A stretch of 64,000 nucleotides of DNA from Anaerosalibacter bizertensis (GTDB lineage Bacteria > Bacillota > Clostridia > Tissierellales > Sporanaerobacteraceae), in assembly GCF_009696605.1 (NCBI RefSeq), contig NZ_VULR01000004.1, positions 1 through 64,000 on the forward strand. The letters are read 5' to 3'. Below are positions 39,968 to 49,400 of this stretch, one piece after another. Numbering within the stretch: the first letter of the stretch is position 1; each line of letters opens with the position of its first letter. The notes under the pieces were generated by a model. It did not search any database, had not been told where the DNA came from, and worked only from the letters and a program-made list of their open reading frames with translations. Made by a program: the position numbers and the translations under genes.

Positions 39968-40004
39968 ATGCTTATAAGATTTTAGATAGGTGGAGGTGGC
40001 TAAC

Positions 40005-40400
40005 TTGGCAGATACTATAAACAATGAAGGGGTAGACTATGGTACTGTAAAGATTGCTAATGAAGTAGTAGCAATAATTGCAGGTTTAGCAGCTACTGAG
40101 GTTGAAGGCGTTGCAGGAATGAGTGGTGGTATTACTGGTGGCATAAGTGATATGTTAGGTATGAAAAACTTATCAAAGGGAGTTAAAGTAGAGGTTGGAG
40201 AAAAAGAATGTGCCATCGATATCTTTGTAATAGTTGAATATGGTTCTAGAATTTCTGAAGTTGCTTTAAGAGTTCAAGAAAATGTTAAAGAAGCTGTAGA
40301 AACAATGACTGGTTTAAATGTTATAGAAGTAAATGTTAATGTTCAAGGTGTAAATATACCTAAAGAGCCTGAAGTAGAAGAGGAACCTAGAGTAAAATAA
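40005..40400 (+). CDS. Asp23/Gls24 family envelope stress protein
   Basis: A 131-residue protein with the Asp23 signature TVKIANEVVAIIAGLAATEVEGVAGMSGG. The C-terminal half shows VALRVQENVKEAVETMTGLNVIEVNVNVQGV. In Staphylococcus Asp23 is held at the membrane by AmaP, whose homologue follows here. TTG 40005 is chosen because GGAGGTGG ends five bases upstream; the in-frame GTG 39990 lies in front of that site. Confidence 0.9.
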   Translation: MADTINNEGVDYGTVKIANEVVAIIAGLAATEVEGVAGMSGGITGGISDMLGMKNLSKGVKVEVGEKECAIDIFVIVEYGSRISEVALRVQENVKEAVETMTGLNVIEVNVNVQGVNIPKEPEVEEEPRVK

Positions 40401-40404
40401 AATA

Positions 40405-40436
40405 TTTACCCTCTGATTTATCAGAGGGTAAATTTA
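40405..40436 (+). terminator. Hairpin between asp23 and amaP
   Basis: TTTACCCTCTGA and TCAGAGGGTAAA form a 12-bp stem with a TTTA loop. The T run after it is short, so it may only attenuate transcription into amaP. Confidence 0.75.
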
Positions 40437-43915: not shown

Positions 43916-44126
43916 TTTATCATATGAAGAGGGTTTAAAAGAATTAGAATCTATAATAGACAGCCTAGAAACCGGAGAATTAACTTTAGAAGAGTCTTTT
44001 AACAAATTTAAAAAAGGAGTAGATCTATATAAATATCTGTATGAAATACTTAATAAAGTAGAGGGAGAAATAAAAATTATTATGGAAGATGAAGAAAGAG
44101 AAGAAGATTTCCAGCTGGAGGGTTAA
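43902..44126 (+). CDS. xseB: Exodeoxyribonuclease VII small subunit
   Basis: A 74-residue helical protein: SYEEGLKELESIIDSLETGE followed by LTLEESFNKFKKGVDLYKYL is the XseB pattern. It overlaps xseA by 14 bases, so the two subunits are translated together. Confidence 0.94.
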   Translation: MDLTNLSYEEGLKELESIIDSLETGELTLEESFNKFKKGVDLYKYLYEILNKVEGEIKIIMEDEEREEDFQLEG

Positions 44127-44130
44127 TTAT

Positions 44131-45000
44131 ATGAGCTTAATAGATGAAATTGATCATTTGAAGGAAGTTATAGATGATGAATTAAATAGAATTTTTGTTA
44201 ATAAAACAGGATATCAAGAAAAAATATTTCAAGCTATGAAATATAGTCTTTTTACTGGAGGAAAACGAATTAGACCTATACTTTTACTAAAGAGCTGTGA
44301 AATGATTAGTGGAAGTTATGATGAAGCAATTCCTTTTGCATTGGCTTTAGAAATGATTCATACTTATTCCCTTATTCATGATGATCTACCATCTATGGAT
44401 GATGATGATTTTAGAAGAGGAAAACCGACAAACCATAAAATCTTTGGGGAAGCTATTGCAATACTTTCGGGAGATGGACTTCTTAATTTGGCATATGAAA
44501 TAATGATAGAAAATACAATTTTATTTTCAAAAAACAGAGAAGATTACTATAAGTTTTTATTAGCTTCCAAAGAAATTAGCAAAGCTAGTGGTATAGATGG
44601 TATGATTGGCGGACAAGTGGTTGATATATTGTCAGATAGCGAGTCTATAGATAGTTTAGAATTAGAATTTATGTATAGATGTAAGACAGCAGCATTAATT
44701 GAGGCAGCAGTAGTTTCAGGAGGAATTATTGGAGGGGCTAATGAAATAGAAATAGATAATTTACGAAAATATGGACGTTGTATTGGCTTAGGTTATCAAA
44801 TAAGGGATGATATATTGGATATAGATGAAGATAGGGCAATAAATAAAACAACCTATTTATCTTTTAATTCTCTTGAAACAGCAAAGGAAAAAGTAGAATA
44901 TTTAAGCAAGGAAGCAAAACTATCTTTAGAAATTTTTAAGGATAATAATATTACTTTTTTAGAAGAGATTGCATATTATTTAATTAATAGGAATAAATAG
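44131..45000 (+). CDS. ispA: Polyprenyl (farnesyl-type) diphosphate synthase
   Basis: A 289-residue all-helical prenyltransferase that condenses isopentenyl diphosphate with allylic diphosphates. The first Asp-rich motif is LIHDDLPSMDDDDFRRGK and the second is GYQIRDDILDIDED. Other conserved parts are GGKRIRPILLL and GGQVVDI. ATG 44131 has GGAGGG upstream. It is followed by the OLE RNA gene, as in Bacillus halodurans. Confidence 0.94.
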   Translation: MSLIDEIDHLKEVIDDELNRIFVNKTGYQEKIFQAMKYSLFTGGKRIRPILLLKSCEMISGSYDEAIPFALALEMIHTYSLIHDDLPSMDDDDFRRGKPTNHKIFGEAIAILSGDGLLNLAYEIMIENTILFSKNREDYYKFLLASKEISKASGIDGMIGGQVVDILSDSESIDSLELEFMYRCKTAALIEAAVVSGGIIGGANEIEIDNLRKYGRCIGLGYQIRDDILDIDEDRAINKTTYLSFNSLETAKEKVEYLSKEAKLSLEIFKDNNITFLEEIAYYLINRNK

Positions 45001-45013
45001 TTTTTTTGTATCA

Positions 45014-45042
45014 TTGAAATAAAAAATATTCTATGCTATAAT
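45014..45042 (+). promoter_or_regulatory. Promoter of the OLE RNA
   Basis: TTGAAA at 45014-45019, a 17-nt spacer and TATAAT at 45037-45042. It begins 13 bases after the ispA stop and predicts a transcript start near 45049. Confidence 0.8.
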
Positions 45043-45048
45043 TATGCT

Positions 45049-45657
45049 TAGCTTAGAGTGGTGCAGTATTCTAGTCAGCACAGCTATTCTCGAAGGCGGG
45101 GCTAAAAATCCGTCGAAGGGCATATCGATGAAGTTCCTAATCTCGGCTTTCGACGCCCAGTTGGGGGCCGTTATTGGGAGTAAGAGAGATGGGGCGATCT
45201 GCAATGGCATGCAGGCGTTGACCCTACTCTCGTGGAGACTTATCCTATAATACGGAAGGATAAGATAAACCTGCAAAGTAAATTCTATTACTCGCAGTGT
45301 AGCCTGCCTTGAGTGAAGTGGGCAGAAGATAATGGAAAACTAAACTTTCCAAAGGGCCCAGGAAAGTTAGGTTTTGTTATCGAAACCCATTTTGCAAAAG
45401 AGGCTAAGGAATAGACTGGCTGTTTGAGGAAAACTCCTAGACTGTTCTATTTAGGAGATATACTAGGGATTACAGTGCGGTCTAAGTGGTAATCTAGTTT
45501 CACTATTTGGCGACAAAGTGAAGATAAGATTGAAGGGAAACCGCTAATATGGCGACATGGAGTTCTTATCTGGGAAATCCTGCTAGACCTTAAGCCGTAA
45601 GATTTACTTAGTATATCACCACTCAAAAAGCTGATAGCATTTGCTATCAGCTTTTTA
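45049..45657 (+). ncRNA. ole: OLE RNA (ornate, large, extremophilic)
   Basis: A roughly 610-nt GC-richer segment without a credible gene, between ispA and a small membrane protein gene. Its 5' end GAGTGGTG (45056-45063) is complementary to CACCACTC (45617-45624), giving an 8-bp closing helix. Internal hairpins include CTTATCCT/AGGATAAG (45239-45246 with 45257-45264), CTGCC/GGCAG (45304-45308 with 45321-45325) and CTTTCC/GGAAAG (45345-45350 with 45361-45366). Length, structure, neighbours (xseB, ispA, tlyA, argR, recN) and the OapA-like partner agree with OLE RNA of Bacillus halodurans and anaerobic Clostridia. OLE forms a membrane-located complex linked to alcohol, cold and magnesium stress. 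Identity comes from context and layout, not from an alignment. Confidence 0.9.
45625..45657 (+). terminator. Terminator at the 3' end of the OLE RNA
   Basis: AAAAAGCTGATAGCA and TGCTATCAGCTTTTT form a perfect 15-bp stem with a TT loop, directly behind the closing helix of the RNA. Confidence 0.93.
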
Positions 45658-45705
45658 TTCTTATAGGACTTTTCAAACCAATAATAATTTGGAGGTTATC
45701 ATTAA

Positions 45706-46293
45706 ATGAGAAGAAAAAGTGATGATGCTATATCACATAAGCAAACTAAAAAATGGGTTATTGTTATTTCTGTGTGGACATTTGTAATGGCCATTTTTTT
45801 TAGCTTAATAACTGAAAAACTTATGAAGAATTTAGATGTGTTTTTTGCATTCATAATATTAATTATTATTATACTATTAGGTATTCTATTTGATATAATA
45901 GGAATTGCGGTAACAGCCTCAGATGAAAAACCTTTTCATTCTATGGCTGCAAATAAAGTAGAAGAAGCAAAACATGCTATAAAACTTATTAAAAACGCAG
46001 GACAAGTATCAAATTTTTGTAATGATGTTATTGGAGATATAAGTGGTATTGTAAGTGGTTCTGCTGGAACAATTATTATTTATAATCTTATAAATAAATA
46101 TAATATTAAAAATGGTACTATATTAAGTATAATAATAACAGCCTTGATTGCCTCTTTTACTGTAGGTGGAAAAGCCGTAGGGAAAGAAATAGCTATAAAT
46201 AATTCTGAAAAGATTATATTTAAAATGGCAAAAGTACTAAATTTTCTAGAAAATAATTTTAAAATAAAATTATTTAAAAATCAAACGAAATAA
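45706..46293 (+). CDS. oapA: OLE-associated membrane protein OapA
   Basis: A 195-residue protein with four predicted membrane helices (about residues 17-38, 45-72, 115-135 and 140-160) and basic ends, including RRKSDDAISHKQTKKW at the N-terminus. A polar central segment (SDEKPFHSMAANKVEEAKHA) lies between helices two and three. In Bacillus halodurans OapA binds OLE RNA and brings it to the membrane. Position directly after the RNA, size and topology all match. ATG 45706 follows GGAGGT. In B. halodurans dxs follows; here tlyA follows at once. Confidence 0.88.
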   Translation: MRRKSDDAISHKQTKKWVIVISVWTFVMAIFFSLITEKLMKNLDVFFAFIILIIIILLGILFDIIGIAVTASDEKPFHSMAANKVEEAKHAIKLIKNAGQVSNFCNDVIGDISGIVSGSAGTIIIYNLINKYNIKNGTILSIIITALIASFTVGGKAVGKEIAINNSEKIIFKMAKVLNFLENNFKIKLFKNQTK

Positions 46294-46309: not shown

Positions 46310-47113
46310 ATGAAGAAAGAAAGGATAGATATTTTATTAGTTGAAAAAAATCTTGTCAAATCCCGAGAAAGAGCAAAGAGAATTGTTATGGAAGGAATAG
46401 TATTTGTAGATGGACAAAGGATTGATAAACCTGGAGAAAAAGTAGCTATAGATAAAGAAATATTAATAAAAGGAAATCCAATTCCTTATGTAAGTAGGGG
46501 AGGACTAAAATTAGAAAAAGCTATAGATAGTTTTGATATAGATTTAAAAAATAAAATAGCTATAGATGTCGGAGCTTCTACAGGAGGATTTACAGATTGT
46601 ATGCTTAAAAATGGTGTAAAAAAAGTATATGCGATAGATGTAGGTTATGGACAAATAGATTGGAATCTAAGACAAGACGATAGGGTAGTTGTAAAGGAAA
46701 GGACTAATATAAGATATGTCACAAAAGATGATATAGGTGAGTTAGCAGATTTTGTTTCTATAGATGTTTCTTTTATTTCTTTAAAGTTAGTATTACCTGT
46801 AGTTAAGGAGCTTATAAATAATGATGGAGAAATTATTTGTTTGGTTAAGCCACAATTCGAGGCTGGCAAAGAAAAAGTGGGAAAGAAAGGCATAATAAGG
46901 GATAGTAAAATTCATGAAGAAGTATTAAATAGTATTTATGAGTTTTGCGAAGAAATAGATCTTCAAGTTAAAGATGCCACATATTCTCCAGTAAAAGGAA
47001 CTACCGGAAACATAGAATATTTATTTTATTTAACAAAGGGGCTAGATAAAACGCATGATAAAACTAAAGAAAAACTCAAAGAAATTGTTGAAAAATCTCA
47101 TATAATGTTATAA
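46310..47113 (+). CDS. tlyA: TlyA-family rRNA 2'-O-methyltransferase
   Basis: A 267-residue protein with an S4 RNA-binding domain (ERIDILLVEKNLVKSRERAK) and a Rossmann SAM domain (AIDVGASTGGFTDCMLKNG, then FVSIDVSFISLKLVLPVV). TlyA enzymes methylate ribose in 16S and 23S rRNA and influence capreomycin sensitivity in mycobacteria; some were once called hemolysins. It sits between oapA and argR. Confidence 0.93.
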   Translation: MKKERIDILLVEKNLVKSRERAKRIVMEGIVFVDGQRIDKPGEKVAIDKEILIKGNPIPYVSRGGLKLEKAIDSFDIDLKNKIAIDVGASTGGFTDCMLKNGVKKVYAIDVGYGQIDWNLRQDDRVVVKERTNIRYVTKDDIGELADFVSIDVSFISLKLVLPVVKELINNDGEIICLVKPQFEAGKEKVGKKGIIRDSKIHEEVLNSIYEFCEEIDLQVKDATYSPVKGTTGNIEYLFYLTKGLDKTHDKTKEKLKEIVEKSHIML

Positions 47114-47232: not shown

Positions 47233-47685
47233 ATGAAGAAATATGGAAGGCAGAGAAAAATTTTAGAACTAATAGAGACTTATGAAATAGAGACTCAAGA
47301 AGAATTAGCAGATCATCTAAAAAGGACTGGCATTGATATTACTCAAGCTACTATTTCTAGAGATATAAAGGAATTAAGATTGGTTAAAGTCTTATCTAAG
47401 AGTGGTAAGTATAAATATGCTGTTATGGATGATAGTACTGAAGGAGCCACAGATAGACTTATAAAAATATTCAAAAGCTCCATCACAAGCTATGATGTAG
47501 CTGGCCATATTTTAGTTATTAAGACTTTACCTGGTGCAGCACAAGTTTGTGCTTCAGCTATAGATACATTAAAAATTGAATCTGTTGTAGGAAGTATTGC
47601 TGGAGATGATACTATATTTGTTGCTATTAGTGATATAGAGCATATTGATTCCGTAGTAAAAACTTTCCAAGGTTTACTCAATTAG
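47233..47685 (+). CDS. argR: Arginine repressor ArgR
   Basis: A 150-residue hexameric repressor/activator of arginine metabolism. The N-terminal winged helix shows QEELADHLKRTGIDITQATI and SRDIKELRLVKV. The C-terminal arginine-binding domain shows KTLPGAAQVCASAIDTL and GSIAGDDTIFVA. It lies in the conserved tlyA-argR-recN order. ATG 47233 follows AAAGGAGG. Confidence 0.95.
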   Translation: MKKYGRQRKILELIETYEIETQEELADHLKRTGIDITQATISRDIKELRLVKVLSKSGKYKYAVMDDSTEGATDRLIKIFKSSITSYDVAGHILVIKTLPGAAQVCASAIDTLKIESVVGSIAGDDTIFVAISDIEHIDSVVKTFQGLLN

Positions 47686-47699
47686 TTGGAGGGAATTTT

Positions 47700-49400
47700 A
47701 TGATTGTAGAACTAAATATTGAGAATTTTGCTATCGTAGAAAGATTGAATATAAATTTTACTAAAGGACTCAATGTATTGACAGGAGAAACAGGTGCGGG
47801 AAAGTCAATAATTGTAGAAGCAATTAGTTTGATTTTAGGAGGAAGAGCTAATAAAGATTTAATAAGGACAGGCTATGATAAAGCTATTTTAGAGGGACTT
47901 TTTTTTCTCGAAAAACCTAAAAAAATAGAAAGAATTTTAAATCAATATGGCATTGAACAAGATCGTGGTAATTACATACTTATAACTAGAGAACTGCATG
48001 CAACAGGTAGAAGTGTTTCAAGAATTAATGGAAGAACAGTAACAGTTAATATGTTAAATAATATTACAAAGCATCTAGTTGATATTCACGGACAACATGA
48101 ACATCAATCTCTTTTAAATGTAGAAAGGCATATTGATATTATTGATTCTTTTGGAGATGATTCTTTTAATGAGTTAAAAGAAAAAATAAAATCTGATTAT
48201 ATTAGAATTTTAAATTTAAAGAAGAAATTAAAGAGTTTGTCTTTAGAAGAAATGGAAAGAGATAGGGAGATTGATATTTTAAAGTATCAAATAGAAGAAA
48301 TAGATAGTTCAAATTTATCTGTGGAAGAGGATGAAAATATTTTAATAGAGTATAATAAATTAAATAATGCACAAAACATTGAATCCAATCTAGGTAAATC
48401 TGTAAATATTCTTCAATCAAAAGAATATGATAGTTTTTCTACAATAGATAGTTTGAACGAGGTTATTAATTTAATCGAAGAGATAAAAGATAATGATATA
48501 CAATTAGAAAAAATCTATAATGAACTTATTAATATTAGTTTTGAATTACAGGATATTACAAGGAACTTAAATAATTATATGGAAAATATAGTTATAGATA
48601 AAGAGCAATTAGATTTTTTAGAAGATAGGATTAATACTATAAATAAATTGAAAAAGAAATATGGAAATAGTGTACAGGAAATTTTTATATATAGAGATAA
48701 AATATATTCAAAACTTCAGCTTCTTTTAAATATAGAAGAGGAAATTCAAGATATTAATAAAAAAATCAAAAAAGTTGAAGAGGCTTTAAAAATTAATTGT
48801 GAACTATTATCTGAGAAAAGGAAACTAATTGGTTCAAACCTTGAAAAAGAGATTTTCAGAGAATTACAAGAGCTTAATATGAAAGATGTAGTTTTTAAGA
48901 TAAATTTTGAGGAATATGATTATTTTACAATTAGTGGTCTTGATAAGGTTGAATTTTTAATATCTACAAACCCAGGTGAAAAATTGAAACCTCTCTCTAA
49001 AATTGTTTCAGGAGGAGAAATGTCTAGAATAATGTTGGCTTTTAAGTCAATTTTAGCTGAATATGATTATATACCCTCCCTTATTTTTGATGAGATAGAT
49101 ACAGGAATTAGCGGAAGAACTGCTCAGATTGTAGGAGAGAAGATTAATAATATTTCAAAAAAACATCAAGTAATTTGCATTTCTCATTTGCCTCAAATTG
49201 CTGCACTTGCAGATACTCATTTTTCAATATCAAAAAAAATAATGGAAGACAAAACTATCGTTAAAGTAAAAAAATTAAATTACGAAGAAAGGATTAATGA
49301 GTTAGCAAGATTATTAGGTGGAGTAGATTTAACAAATACAACAAAGTTACATGCAAAAGAAATGTTAGAATTGACCAAAAAAATAAAAAAAGGTTTCTGA
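47700..49400 (+). CDS. recN: DNA repair protein RecN
   Basis: A 566-residue SMC-like ATPase acting early in double-strand break repair. The Walker A is LTGETGAGKSIIVEAISLIL, the long central part is coiled coil (about residues 150-350), and the C-terminal end carries the signature VSGGEMSRIMLAFKSIL and Walker B SLIFDEIDTGISG. Length is normal. It begins 15 bases after argR. Confidence 0.96.
   Translation: MIVELNIENFAIVERLNINFTKGLNVLTGETGAGKSIIVEAISLILGGRANKDLIRTGYDKAILEGLFFLEKPKKIERILNQYGIEQDRGNYILITRELHATGRSVSRINGRTVTVNMLNNITKHLVDIHGQHEHQSLLNVERHIDIIDSFGDDSFNELKEKIKSDYIRILNLKKKLKSLSLEEMERDREIDILKYQIEEIDSSNLSVEEDENILIEYNKLNNAQNIESNLGKSVNILQSKEYDSFSTIDSLNEVINLIEEIKDNDIQLEKIYNELINISFELQDITRNLNNYMENIVIDKEQLDFLEDRINTINKLKKKYGNSVQEIFIYRDKIYSKLQLLLNIEEEIQDINKKIKKVEEALKINCELLSEKRKLIGSNLEKEIFRELQELNMKDVVFKINFEEYDYFTISGLDKVEFLISTNPGEKLKPLSKIVSGGEMSRIMLAFKSILAEYDYIPSLIFDEIDTGISGRTAQIVGEKINNISKKHQVICISHLPQIAALADTHFSISKKIMEDKTIVKVKKLNYEERINELARLLGGVDLTNTTKLHAKEMLELTKKIKKGF

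Follow-up and report, generated by a model that had tools for sequence, protein, structure and literature searches.

The ole locus of Anaerosalibacter bizertensis encodes what is, with a probability of roughly 0.93, a complete and presumably functional OLE ribonucleoprotein, comprising an RNA with a predicted transcription unit of its own, the partner proteins OapA, OapB and OapC, and a presumed stress role in place of MpfA. OLE is among the largest conserved bacterial RNAs, and we know of no biochemical activity ascribed to it. The window analysed here is a stretch of 64,000 nucleotides at the start of contig NZ_VULR01000004.1, and all coordinates refer to its forward strand, on which every feature of the locus lies. 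The class is a known one, of which this locus is an ordinary case; the locus is of value as a clean example of OLE in an anaerobe, in which the borders can be predicted exactly, each of the three essential partner genes is present and MpfA is missing. The part of the locus that deserves specialist attention is a conserved hairpin at the 3' end of the RNA, the novelty of which is possible rather than proven.

The Rfam model of OLE (RF01071, gathering score 50 bits) matches positions 45042-45638 over its full length (model positions 1-616) with 491.9 bits and an E-value of 2.7e-141. This is the single match above any gathering score in an Rfam scan of the whole window, and the 2.46-Mb genome holds one copy of OLE. 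A sequence-only reading of the window had named the segment 45049-45657 as OLE and described it as GC-richer than its surroundings and highly structured. The model match bears out the identity, and the predicted transcript (45050-45656, with a transcription start at about 45049/45050 and a terminator ending at 45656) agrees with the proposed borders almost to the base. The G+C content of the segment is 43.5% against 28% for the window, and its fold energy corresponds to z = -11.9 relative to dinucleotide shuffles, of which only 20 were used at this length. OLE was found in 44 of 60 genomes at the level of the order and in 67 of 148 at the level of the class; the RNA has been catalogued in about 2,800 genomes (PMC11332333).

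The alignment places this OLE in the full-length class and not in variants 1 or 2, as P7-P9 and the OapB site of P13 are kept and the GGCGAC loops are present. The P12.2 loop (45509-45514) is part of the published OapB-binding region, and the P13 loop (45551-45556) is the published OapB-binding site (PMC12265935). The RNA is closed by the helix P1, in which the 5' strand GAGUGGUG (45056-45063) pairs with the 3' strand CACCACUC (45617-45624). The bases of P1 are unpaired in the structure line of the Rfam model, yet the helix covaries in the alignment of relatives: four of its eight pairs show changes on both sides, and 96% of cells are paired. One stem, at model positions 204-240, is shorter than in the model. 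In one order-level relative (L020:1501-2052, genome G006) the distal P9 arm of OLE is about 40 nt shorter than in the other aligned sequences.

The gene order around OLE is xseA, xseB, ispA, OLE, oapA, tlyA, argR, recN, spoIVB and spo0A; Pfam and NCBIfam assignments reproduce the order from xseA to recN that had been read from the sequence. The upstream neighbour ispA (44089-45000; NF045485, 297.8 bits; PF00348) encodes a polyprenyl/farnesyl diphosphate synthase, and oapA is followed by tlyA (46310-47113; TIGR00478, 280.9 bits), argR (47233-47685; NF001680, 185.6 bits) and recN (47700-49400; TIGR00634, 544.3 bits). The gene oapA itself (45706-46293) starts 68 nt past the OLE model match, behind a ribosome-binding site GGAGG at 45691-45695, and encodes a membrane protein of 195 amino acids of the CNNM/DUF21 family. 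PF01595 (CNNM, formerly DUF21) is its sole domain, with a score of 29.7 bits that is only just above the Pfam cut-off of 28.4, and neither a CBS nor a CorC_HlyC domain is present.

The assignment of this protein as OapA, proposed by the sequence-only reading, is upheld by the CNNM domain and by the neighbourhood of its homologues. OLE lies within 3 kb upstream of the oapA homologue in 79 of 80 named loci, the 80th ending at a contig edge, and the OapA relatives at these loci share 41-95% identity with the protein. The nearest named relatives belong to Anaerosalibacter massiliensis (82%) and, closer still at 95%, to a MAG from coal that bears the label Clostridiaceae. The Bacillus, Lederbergia and Rossellomorea proteins encoded directly downstream of OLE, which stand in here for the OapA of Halalkalibacterium halodurans, are 45-50% identical to it. 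Throughout the class, oapA and OLE are reported to be almost completely mutually inclusive (PMC11332333). The AlphaFold model of OapA, built with 19 homologues, is all-helical with a mean pLDDT of 83, and its best solved match in Foldseek is the archaeal CNNM transporter MtCorB (probability 1.00, E = 0.025, TM-score 0.46), in agreement with the published link between OapA and the MpfA/CNNM transporters (PMC11332333).

A search of the rest of the genome, suggested by the same reading, recovered both remaining partners. OapB is a protein of 93 amino acids, encoded between adk and infA, that matches the solved OapB structure 7k9b at E = 9.6e-15. The gene of OapC, the name since given to YbxF (PMC9723947), lies between rpoC and rpsL; its product matches YbxF at E = 1e-13, and no other L7Ae-family protein is encoded in the genome. 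A bS21 gene is present as well. No CorC_HlyC protein was found in the genome, against 11 of 14 control genomes that have one, and MpfA is therefore absent. The absence of MpfA alongside OLE fits the reported anticorrelation of the two (PMC11332333), and the presence of OapB, OapC/YbxF and bS21 together with the absence of MpfA is the published genomic pattern of OLE.

Published work on H. halodurans suggests how these components might assemble, where the particle would reside and what stress function it might serve. By sequence prediction, transcription of ole starts at about 45049/45050 from a sigma-A type promoter of its own and stops at an intrinsic terminator at 45656; the product would be an RNA of about 607 nt that P1 closes. 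OapA, the product of the next gene, would tether the RNA to the membrane, OapB would be expected on the P12.2 and P13 loops, and the k-turn close to P5/P6 would be the site of OapC/YbxF. If the H. halodurans particle is a guide, this one may take over from MpfA in Mg2+ and stress homeostasis.

The terminator predicted by a terminator scan (45625-45656, with a folding energy of -19.7 kcal/mol) has as its core the stem GCUGAUAGC/GCUAUCAGC (45630-45638/45643-45651), which is conserved in sequence beyond the needs of pairing: six of the nine pairs are invariant in an alignment of 31 sequences. The exact stem occurs in 24 of the 60 order-level genomes, drawn from many families, in a single copy per genome and always at the 3' end of ole; it is absent from all order-level genomes without OLE among these 60, and the palindrome has no second copy elsewhere in the host genome. 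A general terminator repeat of the genome is ruled out by this uniqueness of the stem to ole. At the class level a looser pattern of the stem was found at ole in 6 of the 67 OLE-bearing genomes (two from the order of the window and four from one other family), with four matches away from ole. Among the named loci, the hairpin is present in Tissierellales, Alkaliphilus and Natronincola. It is not part of the Rfam model of OLE, no other Rfam family reached its cut-off at the 3' end, and no mention of the hairpin was found when the text of PMC12265935, PMC9723947, PMC12054373 and PMC10898510 was searched for terminators.

The added constraint on its sequence suggests that the hairpin is retained at the 3' end of the RNA, where it would serve in structure or recognition. 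The Tissierellales type of OLE would keep its terminator hairpin as a further conserved element, as we infer from the conservation. Within Tissierellales, and within one further family of the class, the hairpin may combine the function of a terminator with that of a sequence-specific recognition element, read on the mature RNA by a protein or by another RNA. It would then constitute an OLE domain that neither Rfam nor the papers searched describe. We put this forward tentatively, at slightly short of even odds. If a protein or an RNA does read the stem, it would be a new partner of OLE, and the lineage-specific hairpin offers a concrete handle on it. The arms were also compared with the rest of the RNA. 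Pairing with the invariant 5' segment CUAGUCAG was rejected, the extending base not being kept in the hairpin-bearing species; no consistent partner of the arms was found inside OLE, where no internal site beats the shuffled-arm control.

It is quite possible, though we lean somewhat against it, that the hairpin is an ordinary intrinsic terminator whose sequence was kept by chance and which plays no part once the RNA is mature. The structure is a canonical stem-loop with a U-run, the loop varies between 3 and 16 nt, and the distance from P1 varies as well. The hairpin was not seen in the OLE loci inspected in the Bacillus group, Clostridium and Oscillospiraceae, which implies that OLE works without it, and trimming of the 3' end during maturation could remove the hairpin altogether. 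Chance retention is harder to reconcile with the occurrence of the exact stem once per genome, at ole and nowhere else, in 24 genomes of many families. It also accords poorly with the behaviour of other terminators in the same genomes: the mean best-shift identity of the OLE stems is 0.98 against about 0.50 for the stems of control terminators following recN, spoIVB and spo0A.

The ole RNA might also be made mainly within an operon running from xseA through xseB, ispA, ole, oapA, tlyA and argR to recN, and be released from its transcript by RNase cleavage, with the promoter and terminator at ole itself playing a minor part. All of these genes lie on the same strand with short gaps, and the ole cluster of H. 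halodurans is reported to be polycistronic (PMC12265935), while ole in that species also has a promoter of its own (PMC9723947). The predicted promoter in the window (45014-45042) is a TTGAAA-17-TATAAT sequence with a TG-extended -10 element that agrees with the consensus at 11 of 12 positions. TG-extended promoters scoring at least 9 of 12 stand at a nearly fixed distance, 22-44 bases from the OLE model start, in all 30 order-level loci checked, and the terminator separating ole from oapA is kept in 55 of 109 loci. Both observations make processing from an operon an unlikely main source of the RNA. With its predicted promoter and terminator, ole in this lineage has the appearance of a separate transcription unit.

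That the palindrome 45630-45651 is a DNA operator, bound by a regulator of oapA, and not an RNA hairpin is very improbable. A perfect dyad does lie upstream of oapA, but the spacing of its half-sites varies between 3 and 16 nt, unlike that of an operator bound by a dimer, and this variability was the ground for dismissing the operator; in addition, a U-run follows the palindrome and the genome has no second copy of it. That OLE is a degenerate, non-functional relic, like the defective ole genes that some organisms lacking OapA are reported to have (PMC11332333), has next to no probability given a full-length match, an intact oapA, the presence of oapB and oapC, and the absence of MpfA.

In the ole-oapA gap of four loci from Anaeromonas and its relatives (L044, L048, L027 and L030), the 3' arm of the terminator can pair with a downstream copy of the 5' arm, so that transcripts reading through the terminator could form a hairpin of about 26-27 bp. 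The differences between L027 and L030 are compensatory, a sign that the alternative structure may be real or may be an RNase III site. The window also contains a second sequence-conserved hairpin, ACCCUCUGA-N4-UCAGAGGGU at 40405-40432, immediately behind the 3' end of a gene of the Asp23 family (39990-40400). Of 20 relatives, 19 have it after the orthologue, and in the remaining one the gene search gave only a match of 40% identity; most genomes have a single copy. The hairpin lacks a convincing U-run, and no Rfam family matched it above the cut-off. It seems to go with the Asp23 gene and not with ole, because it is also present in genomes without OLE.

With the MpfA/CorB/CNNM Mg2+ transporters, OapA has in common the CNNM (DUF21) transmembrane domain, and it differs from them in being devoid of the CBS and CorC_HlyC domains. 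Relative to the Rfam consensus, J5/6 of the present OLE is one U shorter, as it is in all aligned relatives. The OLE of Clostridium acetobutylicum, known as a dimer from cryo-EM (PMC12286853), belongs to the same RNA class, and its dimer-forming 5' domain falls within the regions aligned here. C. acetobutylicum is a member of a different order, and the inspected loci of Clostridium senegalense and Haloimpatiens lack the GCUGAUAGC hairpin.

The closest comparison is with the OLE of H. halodurans, likewise of the full-length class of RF01071. The present RNA differs from that of H. halodurans in ending, ahead of oapA, with a terminator hairpin whose sequence is conserved. P6 of the H. halodurans RNA carries CCUCC, a mimic of the anti-Shine-Dalgarno sequence tied to the binding of bS21 (PMC12054373). 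This mimic is missing here, no CCTCC being found within 45050-45656, and the binding of bS21 by this OLE is therefore doubtful. The P6 region (45183-45235) has CUCUC, and several relatives in Tissierellales have CCUCC at the same place. Shared by the two systems are a genome that lacks MpfA and carries oapB and oapC, the context of isoprenoid synthesis genes, argR and recN, the GGCGAC loops for OapB in P12.2 and P13, and a full-length match to the OLE model with oapA as its immediate neighbour.
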